DNA of 64,000 nucleotides from Verrucomicrobiales bacterium (GTDB taxonomy: Bacteria > Verrucomicrobiota > Verrucomicrobiia > Methylacidiphilales > JAAUTS01), in assembly GCA_031256975.1 (NCBI GenBank), contig JAIRPN010000005.1, positions 1 through 64,000 on the forward strand. The letters are read 5' to 3'. The first letter of the stretch is position 1, and each line of letters opens with the position of its first letter. Of the stretch, positions 5,693-17,463 are shown piece by piece. The position numbers and the translations under genes were made by a program. The notes beneath the pieces are model-generated. The model was not told the origin of the DNA. It did no database searches and saw nothing but the letters and a program-made list of their open reading frames with translations.

Positions 5693-6049
5693 TTATTTCA
5701 AACCGATCAGGGCTTGTTTACCGAGGAATTTGGATGCGGTGTCGGCCAGCAATGATGCCATGCCCTCGGAGAGTTCGCCCGAAGCCACCGCCTTATCGAT
5801 GGTCTCCAGAATGTCTCGGATGGCTGTGGCTACGCCGATATCAATATATTTCGGCTCCAACACAGTGGCAGTGAGCTGCTCCGTCTTTTTGCCCGCCATG
5901 AAATATTGTTCTGCCACATTGTCCGCCATTTCGCCCAAATCTTCCTGCAAGCGGTCATACGGCAGGTGTTCTGCGTAAGATGATGCTTTCCAGTGGGAGA
6001 GTTTACATGCGTATTTGAATGCAATCAGTTTTTGCAGTAATTCCAACAT
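5693..6049 (-). CDS. Dps/ferritin-like protein
   Basis: 118 aa. The N-terminal half has the helix pattern and metal-site spacing of the Dps family: His19-Trp20, His28, and Asp43-x3-Glu47 in ADNVAEQY, so a ferroxidase-type iron site is plausible. It is shorter than a typical Dps (about 150-170 aa) and resembles the short ferritin-like proteins found in phages and PVC genomes. The start at 6049 is chosen because MLELLQKLIAFKY recurs in the broken paralogue at 8844-9062, aligned from the same Met. It is monocistronic and leftward, divergent from amtB, with an AT-rich inverted repeat upstream. Function in iron storage or DNA protection is inferred from the motif only. Confidence 0.6.
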   Translation of the reverse strand: MLELLQKLIAFKYACKLSHWKASSYAEHLPYDRLQEDLGEMADNVAEQYFMAGKKTEQLTATVLEPKYIDIGVATAIRDILETIDKAVASGELSEGMASLLADTASKFLGKQALIGLK

Positions 6050-6101
6050 AATAAATCTCCAATTGAGAGTTAACGCCAATGCTACAGGCCTTTTCAGGAA
6101 G

Positions 6102-8843: not shown

Positions 8844-9062
8844 TCATAAAAGGCTTTCTTTCCCGATTTTGAAGGTGCGGCGGGTGAGTTGGACGGTCTT
8901 TTTTCCTGTCATGAAGTATTGCTCGGCAAAATTGTCCCCCCTCTCATCCTGATCTTCCTGCAAGAGCTCGTAGAGCAGATGTTCCGCGTAGTTCGCAGCT
9001 TTCCGATAGGAGAGTTTGCATGAATACTTGAAGGCAATCAATTTTTGCGGCAGTTCCAACAT
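8844..9062 (-). pseudogene. Broken copy of the Dps/ferritin-like gene
   Basis: The first 56 or so residues align with the intact gene at 5693-6049 from the same Met (MLELPQKLIAFKYSCKLSY). The metal-site residues are partly lost: His19-Trp20 has become Tyr-Arg and Asp43 has become Asp-Asn in a changed context. After TGKKT the sequence turns unrelated and stops, 45 residues short of its paralogue. It is preceded by operator cassette B, unlike the intact copy. Confidence 0.75.
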
Positions 9063-9077
9063 AAAAACTAATCCTAA

Positions 9078-9141: not shown

Positions 9142-9164
9142 ACCAAACATCCACCAACCTTATC

Positions 9165-10517
9165 GGTTCCTCGTTATTTGGAGTGGAAAGCTTCGCTGCC
9201 AGGGGTTAGTACACGGGATGGAAATCGAACAAACCATGCAGGCAATGTTGCAGCTTGGCGCGGAGTGGGAAGTGGCCAGTTGTCGATATGAACCAGGGGC
9301 GGAAACCTTTTATATTGTGATCCGGGAAACTCCGGCCCTATGGCAGAAAGAGCGTTGCGGCAAGGATGACGGGAAAGTTTATTGCTACGATCATGTCGGC
9401 CTGACCCGTTGGAAACATCTGAATATCTTCAACCAAGCCTGCGAATTACAATGCGATCTGCCACGGGCCAAGTGCCGCAGCTGTGGCAGCGTCTATCGCA
9501 TCACCCCGCCTTGGGAGGGCCTGAGCAAGCACTTCACCCGCGACTTTGAGGCTTTCGCCCTCACCCTGATGCGGGAGATGCCGGTGAGCCGGGTCAGTGA
9601 CATCGTCGGCGTAAACGACGGCCGCCTGTGGCGGATGTTATTGGCCCATGTGGAAGCGGCCTATGCGGAACTGCCGATGAACGAGGTCACGGTGATTGGC
9701 GCGGACGAGATGAACCGCCGCAAGGGCCATCATTACCTGACCGTCTTTTGCGACCTGACGGCGCGGCGCCTGCTGTATGCCACGCCGGGCCGCGATGCCT
9801 CGGTGTGGGAACGCTTTGCCCGCGCCTTCCGCGAGCATGGCGGCAATTCCGGCACTGTCAGCCAGATCTCCATCGACATGAGTCCCGCTTACCGTCAGGG
9901 CGCGGCGGACTGTTTTGGCAGGGCCGAGGTGGTGTTTGACAAGTTCCACGTTATCGGCCATGCGGGCATTGCCGTGGACACGGTGCGGCGGTTGGAGGCC
10001 GGTCTGGACAAACGGCGGCAGTCCCTGTTGAAGGAGACCCGCTGGTTGTGGCTGAAGAATCCTAACAACCTGACCGACAACCAGCAACGGCGGCTCAATC
10101 GCATCGACCAGCACAGCCTGTGGACCGCCAAGGCTTACCAGATGCGGCTGGCCCTGCAAGCCATCTACCAGCTTCCGCGCTTGCGCGCCAGACAGCGGCT
10201 GCTCGCCTGGTGCCGCTGGGTCTCCCGCGCCGCTGCCAAGGCTCCCAGCCAGCTGCTCCTGCCCATGCTGCGCGTCGCACGCATGGTCGAAAGCCATCTC
10301 TCCGGCATCCTCGCCCACTGGTCCTCCTCCGTCACCAACGCTTTCCTCGAGGGCCTTAACAGCCTCTTCTCCGCCACCAAGCGCAAGGCCCGTGGTTACC
10401 GCTCCACCCGTTACTTCATCGCCATGCTCTACTTCACCGCCGCCAAACTCAACATTCCCGCCCAACCAAACTTTCCTCTTGCCAATCACCCCGTTCCACT
10501 GTAAATCATGAAGAACC
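9165..10517 (+). mobile_element. ISL3-family insertion sequence
   Basis: Terminal inverted repeats of 24 bp were found: left 9165-9188 (begins GGTTCCTCGTTATTTGG) and right 10494-10517 (its complement begins GGTTCTTCATGATTTAC), 19 of 24 positions alike. They enclose one transposase gene, and the right repeat overlaps its last codons. ISL3 elements usually leave an 8-bp target duplication, but the flanks ACCTTATC and CTAGATGT do not match, so a flank has been lost or rearranged. The right end abuts the IS66-type fusion gene 18 bp away. Confidence 0.85.
9218..10504 (+). CDS. ISL3-family transposase
   Basis: 428 aa, full length for the family. The N-terminal zinc-binding part has C-x2-C (CRSCGSVYRITPPWEG, residues 87-102), then a helix-turn-helix around VSRVSDIVGVNDGRLWRML, then the DDE catalytic domain with VIGADEMNRRKGHHYLTVFCD, SIDMSPAYRQGAADCF and DKFHVIGH. 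It moves the surrounding element by DNA cleavage and strand transfer. All motifs are present and the frame is intact, so the element may be active. No ribosome binding site stands out. Confidence 0.95.
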   Translation: MEIEQTMQAMLQLGAEWEVASCRYEPGAETFYIVIRETPALWQKERCGKDDGKVYCYDHVGLTRWKHLNIFNQACELQCDLPRAKCRSCGSVYRITPPWEGLSKHFTRDFEAFALTLMREMPVSRVSDIVGVNDGRLWRMLLAHVEAAYAELPMNEVTVIGADEMNRRKGHHYLTVFCDLTARRLLYATPGRDASVWERFARAFREHGGNSGTVSQISIDMSPAYRQGAADCFGRAEVVFDKFHVIGHAGIAVDTVRRLEAGLDKRRQSLLKETRWLWLKNPNNLTDNQQRRLNRIDQHSLWTAKAYQMRLALQAIYQLPRLRARQRLLAWCRWVSRAAAKAPSQLLLPMLRVARMVESHLSGILAHWSSSVTNAFLEGLNSLFSATKRKARGYRSTRYFIAMLYFTAAKLNIPAQPNFPLANHPVPL

Positions 10518-10535
10518 CTAGATGTTAAATGCTAG

Positions 10536-13118
10536 CTAATTTATTTTCTCTCCCCTTTGCCGTTTCATGGCAAACATGGGCGGGTCCGGTCCGCCGGAAC
10601 GCAGAAAATCCAGGAATTTCACCCCGCGGGTCTTGCAGGTTTCGCACAGGCTGAGCAGGACGAGGTATTCGCGCAGGCCGTTTCCGGTGGTGACACCGTT
10701 GATGACCTGACGCAGCAGGGCGAAAGCCTTGACGGCATGCTCGGCGTTGTTGTTGTTCCACGGAACCCCGTCATGACCGAGGAAGGTGAAGAGTTCGCCG
10801 CGTTCGCGGGCAAGGCGGTCGCGGTATTTGCGGACGATGGCGGAATCCGGTGACAGGCGTTCGAGTTGACGGAAGAAGCGTTCGACGGGGATTTGATGCT
10901 TGCGCAGGAAACGGGCTTTGAGTCCGCGCTGTTCGACGGTGGCAACCATGGGACGGATCAGACCGGCAAAGTCGCGGCCCAAGCGTTGCAAGTCCTGGTC
11001 GTAGGGGTGTTTGTACAAGTCATCGTTCAAATCCCGCAGGAAGTGGATGAGGCAGCGCTGCTTGGGACATTTGAGCGCGTCGTAACCGGCGTAAAAATCA
11101 GTCACCAGCACGCCGTTGAATTCCTTGAGAAAATCCTGGAGCCACTGGCTCTCGCGGTTCTGGGTGTAGACGTAGGCGACGGTGTCCATGCTGGCGAAGG
11201 CCCAGACACAACCCTGATAACCCGCCACGCTGACCTTGGTTTCATCAACATGCAGCAATTTGCCTTGCTTCAGGTGTTGCAGGAGGGATTCGTAGGTTGC
11301 GGCGTAATCCTGCGCGGCCTTGATCTTGAAATTGCGCGCACTGCCCTTGGGAAGTTGCAGGCCGAACAATTCGTTGAGGCTGCGGTCGATAGCTTCCTGC
11401 GAAAGCCGCAACTCGATGTTCTGGTAAACGGCATAGGCCACCAAGCCCGCGCCGAACTTGCCGTCGGGCAATCCGGCCAGCGGCGGACGAAACACCCGCT
11501 CGCAAGTCCGGCATTCGTGGCGGTGGAACTGGTAATGCACCACCCAGCGCCGCACACCGTGGCGGGTGAATTTCAAATCATAGACCGTGCGGCCTGTGCG
11601 GTCATATTTGCGGAGAGCGGAGGGGCCGCAGTGCGGACACTGATCGGGAGCGGGGCATTGTACCCGGCGGTCCACCGGCAAGTCCTTCATGGAAACGGCG
11701 GAAGTTTGCAAAGCCCGTTTCAACCGCCGGTCGGATTTTATGTAGACTTTCTCCCGCTGGTAATCCCAGTACGCGGCCTGGTTGATGGATGCCAGTTCGG
11801 GGAAGAAAAACCGGTTGCGCTTGAAGCCGTAGGGATTCTCCCGTTTCAGGCTCGCCGCATCCACCACGTCGGGGTTCACTGCCATCGCCAAATCGAGAAT
11901 CCCCTGCGTCACCACCGCCAGCGCGGTGCAATCGTCCCTGTTGTAGGCAATCAGGTTTTGCTTTTCCTGCCCGTGCGCCAGCGGATCGCGCGACCAGGTC
12001 TCCCGCCACACCACGGATTGTACTCCCGAGGCTTCCGGCAGCGACCAGTCAAAGCCAAGGTAACGGGCGATTTCCTTCAGGCTGTTGGAATAGGTCGGGA
12101 AATAAATCCGCGCGAAGATGACGGTGACCAGATTCACCGCCGACTTGGTTGCCCGGTCCGCCGGGGAATCCTCCTGCGGCCCGCCGTAACGCGCCTGCAT
12201 CCGCCTGAGGAAACTGGTTTCGTAACTGCCGTAATGGATGAGTACGGGATTCTCCACCGCATTGAGAGTGGCGAGAAACTCCCGCCAGATGCGTTCCTCA
12301 CCGCCGTCATCATCCGCCCACAGGCTGTGCTGTATCGCCGCTGTCCCCTCGCCGACACGCAGGCCAATGAGATAGTAACGGTCACGCTCCGGCAATCCCT
12401 CGACGTCCAGATACACCGGCGTTCCCTCGATCTTCAGTTCCGGCCTGCCCACCAGATGAATCTTCCGCTCGCGAATCGCCAATGCCTTGAGCGCGTGATG
12501 ATACTTCTCCGCCCGGTTCTGCAACCATCTTGGCTTGCGCCTCGGCTGGAAAGTATAGGAAAGCTGCGTGACGGTAAAGATTCCCTTGTCCCGCAGCTTC
12601 AGGCGTTCCCGCTCACCCATGCCTGCCAGCAGGCTCAGACTGTCCTGCTCCACCGCCTTTTGTCGGCAATGAACTTGAAACTCGCACTCCACACAGTGCC
12701 GGTTCAACACCAGTTCCGGCGGCGTGGCGGAGGACAGCATCGTCTCCATTTGCCCAACCCGCTTGCGCACTTCCCCCGCCAGTTCGCCAAGCTTCACCCT
12801 CTTCACCGCAAAGGCATCCCCATACACCAGCCTGCCCTGCGTCACCGGACTCTTGCTCGCAGAGGACAACTCCAATGCGTCAAAGCCCAGCAACAAACGC
12901 TCCTCCTTGCCCGGCTTATTGGAACCGCAAAAACGCAGTGGCATTCCCTCCGTCTCCGCCACCAATACCAGCCGTCTGGCCTTATCCTGATAAACTGCTT
13001 CGCGTTCCCGCAGCCAACCGGCATAGGCATGCTCCCCCGATGGCACGGCATGAAAACGTAACCACCACTTGACCGGACACTGCAAAAAAGCCGCGAACAA
13101 CTCCGCCGTAATCTTCAT
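10536..13118 (-). CDS. Cas4/RecB-like + RNase H-like nuclease fused to IS66-type transposase
   Basis: 860 aa in one frame. Residues 1-155 resemble TM0106-type RecB/Cas4 nucleases: Cys14 and the cluster Cys142-x2-Cys145-x5-Cys151 could hold an iron-sulfur cluster, although the catalytic Asp/ExK part looks shortened. Residues about 230-420 are a YprB-like RNase H/exonuclease fold with VYLDVEG (Asp238, Glu240) and the late motif AYNRDDC. From about 480 comes an IS66-type transposase: C-x2-C zinc knuckles, HVDET, VTDFYAGYD and WNNNNAEHAVKAF as the three DDE parts. The start at 13118 matches the family N-terminus; an in-frame GTG at 13154 would add 12 residues. No terminal repeats were found, so whether it moves is open. 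It might be a transposase helped by its own nuclease, or a domesticated protein. Confidence 0.85.
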   Translation of the reverse strand: MKITAELFAAFLQCPVKWWLRFHAVPSGEHAYAGWLREREAVYQDKARRLVLVAETEGMPLRFCGSNKPGKEERLLLGFDALELSSASKSPVTQGRLVYGDAFAVKRVKLGELAGEVRKRVGQMETMLSSATPPELVLNRHCVECEFQVHCRQKAVEQDSLSLLAGMGERERLKLRDKGIFTVTQLSYTFQPRRKPRWLQNRAEKYHHALKALAIRERKIHLVGRPELKIEGTPVYLDVEGLPERDRYYLIGLRVGEGTAAIQHSLWADDDGGEERIWREFLATLNAVENPVLIHYGSYETSFLRRMQARYGGPQEDSPADRATKSAVNLVTVIFARIYFPTYSNSLKEIARYLGFDWSLPEASGVQSVVWRETWSRDPLAHGQEKQNLIAYNRDDCTALAVVTQGILDLAMAVNPDVVDAASLKRENPYGFKRNRFFFPELASINQAAYWDYQREKVYIKSDRRLKRALQTSAVSMKDLPVDRRVQCPAPDQCPHCGPSALRKYDRTGRTVYDLKFTRHGVRRWVVHYQFHRHECRTCERVFRPPLAGLPDGKFGAGLVAYAVYQNIELRLSQEAIDRSLNELFGLQLPKGSARNFKIKAAQDYAATYESLLQHLKQGKLLHVDETKVSVAGYQGCVWAFASMDTVAYVYTQNRESQWLQDFLKEFNGVLVTDFYAGYDALKCPKQRCLIHFLRDLNDDLYKHPYDQDLQRLGRDFAGLIRPMVATVEQRGLKARFLRKHQIPVERFFRQLERLSPDSAIVRKYRDRLARERGELFTFLGHDGVPWNNNNAEHAVKAFALLRQVINGVTTGNGLREYLVLLSLCETCKTRGVKFLDFLRSGGPDPPMFAMKRQRGEKIN

Positions 13119-13294
13119 CTCCTGATTTGCACGGCGGTCGCACAGTGCTACCACCCCGCAGTCAAGATGTCAGAACATCACTGGATGGCAATCTCCCCGA
13201 CGCAACAAATTGTGAACAACCACTTGTTGATTCACCCACCAAACAAAAGGAAGGCCGCAATCACACGCGGCCTCTTATGATTCAAAACAAAAAA

Positions 13295-13500: not shown

Positions 13501-16500
13501 TTAGAACTGATGTCGGTAACCGAAGTTGATGCCAAAGGGTTTGTCGTACTTGTCGGCGAACTGGGCTTCGTAGTCGAGGTGGAGTTGGTTCCGTTCGTCA
13601 AGTTGGTAGATAACACCCGCACCGATGATGGCGCTCAGGCCGTCGGTGTTGGGGCGGTAGCTGCCGTCGAAGGTGGTCACTTCCCCGCCGTCGCTCACCT
13701 GCTCCACGCCGAATACCTTGACGTAGGGTTGCAGGAAGCCTTTGCCGTTTAGCTTGATGGTTCTGCCGAACATGGAGCCGAAGCGCAGTTGCAGGGCGTC
13801 CTGGCCGGAGATGTCCACCCCGAAGGCGTTGTCGCCGGTGGTGGCGTAGTTGCTGCCGAAGAAGTGCACGTAGCTGGCTTGTACCTGCGGTTCGGCGTAC
13901 CAGGCGTCCTTGAATTGGAATTGCCGGCCCAACTCGATGCTGGTTCCGGCGGCCCAGCCGTGGTAGCTGCCGTTCATGGTGTTGAAGCTGTCGTCGTGCG
14001 ACTTGAAGCTGCCGTCCAGATAGGCGGCGCGGGCGGTCCAGTCGGCGTACCAGCCGCTGTCGTGCAGCCATGAGGCGTACATTCCCAAACCGTAGCTGTC
14101 GAAGCCGCCGTCGCTGCCGTTGTATTTGAAGTCCAAATCACTGCGCTGGTAGCCGCCGAACAGGCCGGTGTACACCACGTTGCGCTGGTCAATGTTCCAC
14201 GCCTTGTCCGCGCCGATGTCCACGCCGTAGGTCATTTGCTCGTAGGTGCCGAAGCCGGTCACTTTGCCGCCCATGTTGTATTGGCTGCCGTAGCTTCTGA
14301 CCCACGCTTCCCAATCGTGGCCGGTCGGGTTTAAGCGCAGTTCGCCCATGCGTTTGACGAGGGTATCGTTGTCGAACCATGCCGTCGTTAATGCCGCTTG
14401 GCTGGCGTAGATCACGTGGCCGCCGCCGCCGGTTTCTGACTTGGAGGCTTCGGGCAGTACCAGATACCAGGTGTTCGGGTCGTCACCGCCCAAGGTGGTG
14501 TATTGCTCGCTGCCCTGCACCAGCCGGGCGGTCTTGGTGCCGAGGTTGATGGTGCCTTTGTAGATGTGCTCCACTTGCGTGTCCCCGCTGAAGCTGCCCT
14601 CACTGTTGCCGGTGACGATCATCGGCAGGGCGAAGGCGTCGGTCTGCAAGTTCCCTTGCGGTTTGATGATGACGGTATGGGTGCCCGCCGCCGTGCCGGT
14701 GACGATCATCTGGTCGGAGTTTTGCGTGTTGTTGTCCACCAGGACGTTCATTTGGAAGCTGCCGTTGCCGCTCAGGTTTTCCATGGTCAGGGTCTTGAAG
14801 CTGCCCTGCACTGTCTCGAAGTCCACCGTGCCGTTGTTGTCCAAGGTGGTCAGGCTGGAATTGTCGGTCAGGGTCCAGACGGAGCCGTTGTTCAGGTTGA
14901 CGTTCAGCACCGCGTTGTCGCTGACGGTGGATTTGCCGGTCAGGGTGCTGTTGTTGCCCAGTGTCACGGTTGTCACCGAGTCATCGTTGCCAATCAGGTT
15001 GCCGGTCAGGTTGGTGTCCTCCGAGGTCAGGGTCAGGCTGGCGCTGCCGCCGGCTTGAAGGACATTGTCGCCGTTGACCGCGCTGATGCCGCTCAGGATG
15101 ATCACCGATTCGCCGCCTGCGGCGTTAATCAGGTCTTCGGTGGCGGCCAGGGAGCCGCCAATGAAGGTCAGCGTGTTGGTGCCGGTTCCGTCAACAGTGA
15201 CGATGCCGTGCCGTCCGGCGGTGAGGTCACTGTCCAGCAGCGTGACGGTCGCGTTGCCCTGCATTTTCACCGCATCGGCCCGCGCGCTGCCCGCGGTCAG
15301 GCTGTCGGCGATCAGGGTGGCGCCATTGACCGACAACGCCACGGCGTCGTTTCCCTGCGTCGCAATACCGCCCCCCGTCATGGTCAAGGTTGAAGAACCC
15401 GTGGCGACGACACCACCGGCGGCATCCCCACCGGTGCTGATGGTCACATTGGCCAACTCAACAGAGGATGTGCCGCTGGCATAAGCACCATAACCGAGTG
15501 AGCCGGTGGTCGTGATACTGCTGTCAATCACGGTCAGGGTTGAAGCCTGCGCGGCGAAGACACCACGACCGTTTTCTCCCTCAGTATCGATGGTTACACT
15601 GTCCAGCATACCCGAAGAGGTGCTGGTGGCATAAACTGCATAGCTTTTATTCCCTTCCGTCTTGATATTCACATCGTACAACGTAATAACTGAGTTGCTT
15701 TGAGTAATGGCGCCATATCCGGCCGAACCCGTGGTCGAAACATTGCCGCCTGCCACATTCAGGGTAGAGGAAGTATTGACCCAGAGAGCAGCACCAGTAG
15801 CTCCGCTTGTCCGGATGTCCACATTATCCAAGGCACCGACCGAGGTTCCGGCAACAGTCACGGCGTAACCATTCGCACCGGTGGTCTCGACACTGCCACC
15901 GGTGATGTTCAAGGTCGAGGAGGCAATGGCATAAACACCGTAGGCGTGAGTCCCTTCCGTCCTGACGCTCACATTGTTCAGGCTGGCGGACGAACTGTTG
16001 TAAGCCACGACACCATAGCCGCTCGAACCATTGGTCACGATACTGCCGCCATCAATGCCCAGGGTCGAATACACATCGGCAAAGACACCATAGCTGTTCC
16101 GGGCGGTGATATCCACGTTGCCCAGCATGCCAACCGAAGTGCCGCTCAGTTCAACACCGCGATAAAAAGAGTCAATCACCGTATCCTGCAAAACCACGTC
16201 ACTGTGGGAAGCGACCCTTACCCCGCCCGCCCCGGTTGTCCCGGTGGTGATGCTGCCGCCGGTCATCGTCACGGTGGTGGAATTGGCGAGGTCAAGACCG
16301 TAGGCATTGGTGCCGCGAGTGGTAATATTGACACCGTCCAGGTAGGCAACGGAGTTGGTGCTGCTCAGGCGAATGCCGGTGGCATAGGAATTGATTACCG
16401 TATCCTGCATCTGCATGGTAACTTTGCTATTAGTGGTGCCGGACACGCCATAGGAACCGGGCCCGTTGGTGGTGATGGTGCCGCCGGTCATGGTTAGCAC

Positions 16501-17463
16501 GCCGGTGTTCTGTATGTAAATACCAGCGGAATTCGTGCCGTCGGTGGTGAGATTGACATTGTCCAGCAGCAGGCTGGAATTTGTCCCGGCGCCTCCCCAG
16601 ACGACTGCCGCATTGTAAGCGTAATTGGTGGAAGTCATCCCCTGGGTATAAACCGTGCTGTTGCGGACAGTGACAACTGTGTTATCATCGTACAAGGCAA
16701 GGCCATACGCTCTGGCCCTAAGGGTAATGTTATCCGCCGTCAAGGTCCCGCCGACGGCGACATAAATCTCCCCGCCGTCAAACACGGTTCCCTGCAGGTT
16801 GGCCACACCGCGTGTTATCGACAGCATCCGAGCGCTGCCACTAACGGAACCGCCGGTCATGGTGAGCGTGCCGGATGAATTGGTGATACCGAATTGAGTT
16901 ATACCTGTGATATCGACATTCTCCAACTCGATGACGGAAGACCCGTAAAGGCGTATACCGCTGTTGTAATTGTTAATCGTACTGTCCCGCATGGTCAGAC
17001 TGACTCCCGTGCCGGTCACGCCTGTACGATTACTCTCACCGGTCACGCTCGAGTTGATGGTGACAGTATCCAGATCAATGGCGGAATTGCTGCCGCTTAT
17101 TAAAACCCCGTAATAACTGCTCGTGATAATACTATCCGTCAGGTTGAGCTTGGCGCCAGCGCTGAGATTGGCACCGATACGCCCGTTGCCGCTGGCAGCG
17201 GTGCCGGTCAGCGTGACATTGCTGCCGGTGTAAACGCCGTTGCTGCCAGTCACCGTCAACGCCGCCGTGCCGGTGGACTTGTTTTCATAATGCGTCCCCG
17301 ACTCGGTGACCGTGGTATTGCTCACCACCAGGTTCTGGGCGGATGCGTTCAACACGGTAAAGCAAGCGAGCAAGCACACGCTCGCTCTGACGCCGAGCCG
17401 ACGGGCGAAGCAACCGCGCGAAAGCGCAGAGGGTTGGAAGTGAAGTTTTAGTTTATGTTTCAT
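13501..17463 (-). CDS. Autotransporter adhesin, 1320 aa
   Basis: A long signal peptide (about 43 residues; basic start, hydrophobic VCLLACFTVLNASAQ) is followed by a Ser/Thr/Gly/Asn-rich passenger of about 1000 residues with repeating TMTGGSI and TTGSxGYG units predicting a beta-helix. The last 280 or so residues are an autotransporter beta-barrel (from WFDNDTLVKRMGEL to GINFGYRHQF, ending in Phe as outer-membrane barrels do). This type V layout puts the passenger on the cell surface. A ribosome binding site (GGGAG) precedes the ATG. The barrel is very close to that of the 3623-aa protein at 22379, so the two share a recent origin. Expression is probably from cassette C, with a hairpin in the 5' leader. 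Confidence 0.92.
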   Translation of the reverse strand: MKHKLKLHFQPSALSRGCFARRLGVRASVCLLACFTVLNASAQNLVVSNTTVTESGTHYENKSTGTAALTVTGSNGVYTGSNVTLTGTAASGNGRIGANLSAGAKLNLTDSIITSSYYGVLISGSNSAIDLDTVTINSSVTGESNRTGVTGTGVSLTMRDSTINNYNSGIRLYGSSVIELENVDITGITQFGITNSSGTLTMTGGSVSGSARMLSITRGVANLQGTVFDGGEIYVAVGGTLTADNITLRARAYGLALYDDNTVVTVRNSTVYTQGMTSTNYAYNAAVVWGGAGTNSSLLLDNVNLTTDGTNSAGIYIQNTGVLTMTGGTITTNGPGSYGVSGTTNSKVTMQMQDTVINSYATGIRLSSTNSVAYLDGVNITTRGTNAYGLDLANSTTVTMTGGSITTGTTGAGGVRVASHSDVVLQDTVIDSFYRGVELSGTSVGMLGNVDITARNSYGVFADVYSTLGIDGGSIVTNGSSGYGVVAYNSSSASLNNVSVRTEGTHAYGVYAIASSTLNITGGSVETTGANGYAVTVAGTSVGALDNVDIRTSGATGAALWVNTSSTLNVAGGNVSTTGSAGYGAITQSNSVITLYDVNIKTEGNKSYAVYATSTSSGMLDSVTIDTEGENGRGVFAAQASTLTVIDSSITTTGSLGYGAYASGTSSVELANVTISTGGDAAGGVVATGSSTLTMTGGGIATQGNDAVALSVNGATLIADSLTAGSARADAVKMQGNATVTLLDSDLTAGRHGIVTVDGTGTNTLTFIGGSLAATEDLINAAGGESVIILSGISAVNGDNVLQAGGSASLTLTSEDTNLTGNLIGNDDSVTTVTLGNNSTLTGKSTVSDNAVLNVNLNNGSVWTLTDNSSLTTLDNNGTVDFETVQGSFKTLTMENLSGNGSFQMNVLVDNNTQNSDQMIVTGTAAGTHTVIIKPQGNLQTDAFALPMIVTGNSEGSFSGDTQVEHIYKGTINLGTKTARLVQGSEQYTTLGGDDPNTWYLVLPEASKSETGGGGHVIYASQAALTTAWFDNDTLVKRMGELRLNPTGHDWEAWVRSYGSQYNMGGKVTGFGTYEQMTYGVDIGADKAWNIDQRNVVYTGLFGGYQRSDLDFKYNGSDGGFDSYGLGMYASWLHDSGWYADWTARAAYLDGSFKSHDDSFNTMNGSYHGWAAGTSIELGRQFQFKDAWYAEPQVQASYVHFFGSNYATTGDNAFGVDISGQDALQLRFGSMFGRTIKLNGKGFLQPYVKVFGVEQVSDGGEVTTFDGSYRPNTDGLSAIIGAGVIYQLDERNQLHLDYEAQFADKYDKPFGINFGYRHQF

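Follow-up and report, generated by a model that had tools for sequence, protein, structure and literature searches.

A single gene in the window, the 64,000-nucleotide stretch of the Verrucomicrobiales contig JAIRPN010000005.1 analysed here, encodes a Cas4/TM0106-like Fe–S domain and a DEDD-type exonuclease-like domain joined to a zinc ribbon and an IS66-type DDE transposase domain. This fusion is not a one-off: it belongs to an old monophyletic family found over many phyla. Our preferred reading, held tentatively and at slightly less than an even chance, is that the protein is a self-contained DDE integrase or transposase in which an N-terminal module from a TM0106-type nuclease replaces the IS66 accessory functions, and that its gene is mobile but not a standard insertion sequence (IS). 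The parts are known already, and database models recognise each half. A search limited to open PMC papers found no description of the fusion: neither the architecture and its conservation, nor the single origin of the family, nor the combination of a dead Cas4-like domain with DEDD and DDE domains appeared in the papers searched.

Domain architecture and catalytic residues

The gene lies on the minus strand as a single frame of 860 aa from its ATG with no internal stop (Table 1); an earlier note made from the DNA letters had also placed the fusion in one frame. An alternative start, the upstream GTG at 13154, would give 872 aa. Profile searches of both halves returned matches above curated cut-offs. 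TIGR03491 (TM0106 RecB-like nuclease) covers aa 67–403 with an E-value of 1e-54 and 185.9 bits against a cut-off of 97.45, and NF033517 (IS66 transposase) covers aa 478–840 with an E-value of 4e-62, above its equivalog cut-off. Pfam identifies RNase_H_2 and DDE_Tnp_IS66 in the window protein, and both families in all 46 aligned members.

Table 1. Features of the fusion gene and its downstream border (positions in the window)
Feature	Position	Strand	Evidence
Complete fusion gene, 860 aa + stop	10536..13118	-	AGGAG directly 5' of ATG; family start (M.IT) conserved in alignment
Cas4/TM0106-like Fe–S domain, aa 1–155; Cys14, Cys142, Cys145, Cys151; PD-(D/E)XK catalytic motif absent	12654..13118	-	Cas4 profiles; profile search of PDB sequences, Cas4 8d3l, E 5e-6; Foldseek 8d3q/8d3l, prob 1.00
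Conserved linker, aa 156–230; slowest-evolving part by dN, window copy versus L002	12429..12653	-	dN comparison
DEDD(y)-type 3'-5' exonuclease-like domain (RNase_H_2), aa 231–405; D238, E240, E300, Y392, D396	11904..12428	-	Pfam; residues fixed or always acidic in 74/74; family-B DNA polymerases as Foldseek matches
Variable linker, aa 406–477; partly disordered in model (427–433, 452–477 pLDDT < 50)	11688..11903	-	Predicted model
Zinc ribbon, aa 478–553; Cys494/497/536/539	11460..11687	-	Cysteines kept in 73–74/74; weak ISL3/IS66 zinc-finger profile matches in some members
IS66-type DDE domain, aa 554–860; D625, D674, E793	10539..11459	-	Pfam PF03050, E 5e-32; triad 74/74; Foldseek to ISCth4 transposase 6xgx, E 1e-7
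Gap between fusion stop codon and ISL3-type element, 18 bp	10518..10535	.	Most ISL3 homologues of sister genomes stop at 10515–10517

The four Fe–S-type cysteines and the exonuclease-like domain, with DVE at aa 238–240 and YNRDDC at aa 392–397, lie exactly where the earlier note had placed them, and its full IS66-type transposase is borne out by the NF033517 match and the intact DDE triad. Across the 74 aligned full-length fusions, the exonuclease-like domain never varies at D238, E240, Y392 and D396, and each sequence has an acidic residue (E/D) at position 300. Of the Fe–S cysteines, Cys142, Cys145 and Cys151 are fixed, and Cys14 occurs in every sequence that has a residue in that column. 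The window protein and that of L002, a same-genus copy at a different place, lack about 60 residues that other members have between aa 57 and 60.

An AlphaFold2 model built from a 46-sequence alignment has a pLDDT of 86 and a pTM of 0.53, so that the domains are good and their mutual arrangement is uncertain. In a Foldseek comparison with the PDB, the strongest match is the ISCth4 transposase, followed by weaker matches (E ~0.01–0.05, most with prob 0.94–1.00) to exonuclease-bearing family-B polymerases, to Cas4 of Cas4–Cas1–Cas2 and to Dna2.

The GYAD(F), EVxDTK and QLxxY motifs are present in the unfused TM0106 proteins L113, L117 and L119 and absent in all aligned fusions, in which the catalytic-motif region consists of unrelated residues and proline alone is kept throughout. 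A few distant fusions retain one acidic residue of the PD-(D/E)XK site and none retains the motif; an active RecB/Cas4 nuclease was rejected on this ground. The Fe–S cysteines persist despite the motif loss. Thus, the Cas4-like fold and cysteines of the Cas4/RecB-like nuclease named in the earlier note stand, whereas the nuclease label does not. The loss makes it most likely, judging from the aligned residues, that the Cas4-like domain binds DNA and holds its cluster without cutting. The likely nuclease of the fusion protein is the DEDD domain, which keeps its acidic residues in all aligned members.

Distribution, origin and selection

A pattern-based scan of 84,980 genomes yielded 153 relatives, a lower bound because the scan reaches close relatives only. 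Most of the best 80 of the 153, which were kept, are near full length, and the 74 full-length ones align end to end. These best 80 span Verrucomicrobiota, Acidobacteriota, Planctomycetota, Nitrospirota, Pseudomonadota, Bacteroidota, Cyanobacteriota, KSB1, Hydrogenedentota and one Thermoplasmatota archaeon. The same domain order recurs in independent assemblies, including complete records (the Polaromonas chromosome CP087965 and plasmids of Acaryochloris and Calothrix), and the fusions form a single clade. That sequencing or assembly had merged two adjacent genes, a concern raised in the earlier note, is rejected on this evidence; nothing was found in favour of such a join, and it keeps only a vanishing probability. 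Because same-order relatives occur across many phyla, the fusion is probably a horizontally spreading DNA-processing enzyme. Public annotation names one half each, "TM0106 family RecB-like putative nuclease" (H1) or "transposase IS66, putative" (H2).

A tree built from the DDE part groups 24 fusions into a single clade (SH-aLRT 100) on a long stem, separate from 21 IS66 proteins of the same phylum that are unfused. Among unfused proteins of the phylum sample, the best match is ~31% identical. In the full tree, strongly supported branches force the phylum label to change at least 10 times for Pseudomonadota, 7 times for Verrucomicrobiota and 9 times for Acidobacteriota, as horizontal transfer would give, although binning errors and paralogues can add to these changes. 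In a comparison of the window copy with L002, all domains are under purifying selection (dN/dS ~0.04–0.21), with values of 0.17 for the Cas4-like domain, 0.21 for the DEDD domain and 0.14 for the zinc ribbon plus DDE domain. Between L076 (5719–6320) and L078, the first 200 codons have a pS of 0.31 as compared with 0.02 for the rest of the gene, which suggests that the N-terminal Cas4-like domain was exchanged; some boundaries may therefore reflect recombination.

Only two near-full-length plasmid matches were found in 72,556 records, both on cyanobacterial plasmids and each annotated after one of its halves; neither phage records nor two scans covering 2.9 million viral contigs yielded a fusion. 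Of the 289–388 genomes sampled from the phylum, only a few contain one. Genomes carry 1–5 divergent copies, and no near-identical copies within one genome were seen among the loci examined. This low, divergent copy number is unlike that of a currently expanding IS, though draft assemblies hide identical copies. At L038, a second, related fusion gene (9155–11366) lies in tandem downstream of the first.

Discrete units, competing readings and known counterparts

Paired relatives share discrete units of 3–6 kb in unrelated surroundings, with identity falling to background within ~100 bp at both ends. The 6.0-kb unit of L061/L063 drops from ~93% to ~40% identity at both ends and includes a DUF1156-type methylase gene, and the shared part of the 3.1-kb unit of L064/L074 ends a few bases short of the stop codons. 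A convergent Gp49/HTH_37 toxin–antitoxin (TA) pair is included in the 3.7-kb unit of L039/L059, and AbiEi/AbiEii in the 4.4-kb unit of L069/L080; overall, AbiE, HigBA-like or methylase genes are present in some of the units. At many unit ends, the border is no more than tens of bases from the outermost gene's start or stop codon, and most close pairs have no noncoding 3' end in common.

No general terminal inverted repeats were found among the relatives, with isolated cases only in L026 (a 30-bp inverted repeat beside a gene for a RAYT, or REP-associated tyrosine, Y1, transposase) and in L069/L080. The latter units (L069 245–4760, L080 505–5000) have the ends TTATGCC...GGCATAA with a hairpin downstream and by look are a candidate integron cassette with attC. 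No target duplications, which are of 8 bp in IS66 elements, were seen at the units examined. A clean empty site was found neither in the window's genus, where the L002 site is conserved on the mqnA side and not on the other, nor in searches of Polaromonas and Cupriavidus. The transposon with built-in end processing suggested in the earlier note is thus supported in part, since the discrete mobile units fit it, but repeats such as an IS66 element should have are missing from their ends. As the unit ends are without IS66-type repeats, the transposition step itself, like all biochemical activities of the fusion, is one that we infer.

TA families are enriched close to the fusions, a result that is good but not final given the 25 Pfam families listed and crude ORF calls. 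Among those 25, the families with at least two members in 145 ORFs within 1 kb are mostly TA (DUF6088/AbiEi 4, Gp49 4, AbiEii 3, DUF5615 3, UPF0175 3 and HTH_37 2), whereas among 145 ORFs at 2–6 kb, again with 25 families listed, PIN (2) is the only such TA family. The difference (19 versus 2, Fisher p 1e-4) holds without one related Bacteroidota group (13 versus 2, p 0.006) and when six unseen TA singletons are allowed in the far set (p 0.04). TnpB_IS66 is not among the 25 families listed for near neighbours.

Several observations count against a mobile integrase: no general terminal repeats, target duplications, clean empty site or near-identical copies, few plasmid and no phage copies, a window copy without visible ends, and the N-terminal divergence of L076/L078. 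The main and serious rival, though a somewhat unlikely one, is a domesticated transposase or defence enzyme that no longer transposes, has a nuclease/integrase-like role in defence or in maintaining the genome, and spread by recombination in TA-rich defence neighbourhoods. The absence of repeats and of recent copies, the low copy number and chromosomal bias, the TA excess within 1 kb over 2–6 kb, the methylase inside one unit and the strong purifying selection all agree with such an enzyme. By comparison, a conserved zinc ribbon and full DDE triad, as in an active transposase, sharp-ended units in unrelated flanks, and passengers that differ by lineage in no fixed operon argue against it. If domestication did occur, the family would represent an overlooked defence or repair enzyme, filed by automatic annotation under one half or the other.

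It is improbable that the family is instead an ordinary IS66-family IS of ISBst12-like, single-tnpC type, with short or degenerate ends that were missed and an N-terminal half that is an inherited oddity of little consequence. ISBst12-type elements with tnpC alone do exist without TnpA/TnpB, the fusion exceeds the NF033517 equivalog cut-off, and inverted repeats are seen in L026 and, in shorter form, in L069/L080. However, the L026 repeat has a RAYT gene next to it and that of L069/L080 resembles an integron attC, most close pairs lack a common noncoding 3' end, and the fusions form a distinct clade on a long stem with the N-terminal half conserved throughout.

In the preferred reading of a self-contained DDE integrase, the Fe–S Cas4-like domain would bind and position single-stranded or frayed DNA ends without cutting, the DEDD domain would trim 3' ends, and recognition of the element and strand transfer would fall to the zinc ribbon and DDE domain. 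Trimming would be coupled to joining, as in the Cas1–Cas2/DEDDh trimmer-integrase, and the unit would pass from one species to another as a discrete segment, low in copy number and with borders close to its genes, with TA or methylase genes sometimes travelling as passengers. Such a trimmer-integrase would explain how an IS66-type enzyme works without TnpA/TnpB. A further proposition goes beyond this reading: the family would be a new class of mobile unit, in which a DDE trimmer-integrase of one chain, using its dead Cas4-like domain to bind ends and its DEDD domain to trim them, moves segments the size of genes that lack classical terminal repeats and pick up varied TA or methylase passengers. 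This proposition appears unlikely.

Compared with IS66 TnpC (NF033517, PF03050), the fusion shares the DDE domain and zinc ribbon and differs in its 477 extra residues and separate clade, with ~31% best identity to unfused members in the phylum sample; as compared with an IS66 element, it has no TnpA/TnpB and no IS66-type terminal repeats were found. The TM0106/COG2251 RecB-like putative nucleases (TIGR03491), found unfused as frames of ~500–1,140 aa without a transposase, have Fe–S cysteines followed by an RNase_H_2 exonuclease domain in the same order, whereas the fusion is joined to a DDE transposase and lacks their three motifs. In Tn7, a DDE transposase (TnsB) is paired with a catalytically active PD-(D/E)XK-fold protein (TnsA). 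The fusion resembles this pairing of a DDE transposase with a PD-(D/E)XK-fold partner, but its PD-(D/E)XK site is lost, a DEDD domain is present and no Tn7 target-selection genes were seen.

Cas4 of CRISPR adaptation shares the fold and the four-cysteine set by profile and Foldseek matches, whereas the fusion has lost the catalytic residues and showed no CRISPR link in a non-systematic look; the words transposase and IS66 are absent from a survey of Cas4 (PMC5704561). The closest citable functional analogue, by analogy only, is the Cas1–Cas2/DEDDh trimmer-integrase, in which DNA is trimmed ahead of its integration by a DnaQ-like exonuclease attached to the integrase (PMC10284694); in both, an integrase is covalently linked to a DnaQ-like exonuclease, the integrase being Cas1 there and DDE in the fusion. 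End trimming before integration usually involves separate proteins. Here, a Cas4-like domain, a DnaQ-like exonuclease and a DDE integrase are in one chain, and this widespread one-chain family allows a direct test, with one purified protein, of whether trimming is coupled to joining. If the proposal is true, a single-chain trimmer-integrase would be a DDE counterpart to the Cas4/DnaQ–Cas1 machinery of CRISPR adaptation.

The window locus and neighbouring repeats

The fusion gene is single-copy in its own 2.76-Mb genome and is flanked by an ISL3-type transposase gene on one side and an autotransporter gene on the other. In agreement with the earlier note, neither TnpA/TnpB helper genes beside the gene nor a terminal inverted repeat at the window locus was found; further copies and ends were found among the relatives, as discrete units, and not in the gene's own genome or visibly at the window copy. 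No TA pair adjoins it, and an Rfam search returned nothing relevant. The ISL3-type element (9165–10517, plus strand; gene 9218–10504) ends 18 bp from the fusion stop codon, and the original downstream flank is hidden because this element adjoins.

A RAYT gene is the immediate neighbour of the fusion in L022, L024, L026 and L058, and all four RAYT genes found in the flanks are first neighbours. The motif GTAGCAGCCGACGTNAGGAGGCTC occurs in 61 exact copies in the L022 genome. RAYTs are the makers of GTAG-led REP repeats. Because they adjoin the fusion and make such repeats, the GTAGCAGCCGACGTNAGGAGGCTC repeats are treated as an association only, and their production by the fusion was not accepted.

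In the window, a short gene fragment is present in two copies, at 8885–9067 and 5871–6054, which are 76% alike, with a third copy on another contig of the same genome. The autotransporter gene (13501–17463, minus strand) belongs to a large autotransporter family; its C-terminal barrel region matches ~16 places in its own genome and ~40 places in each of two sister genomes.
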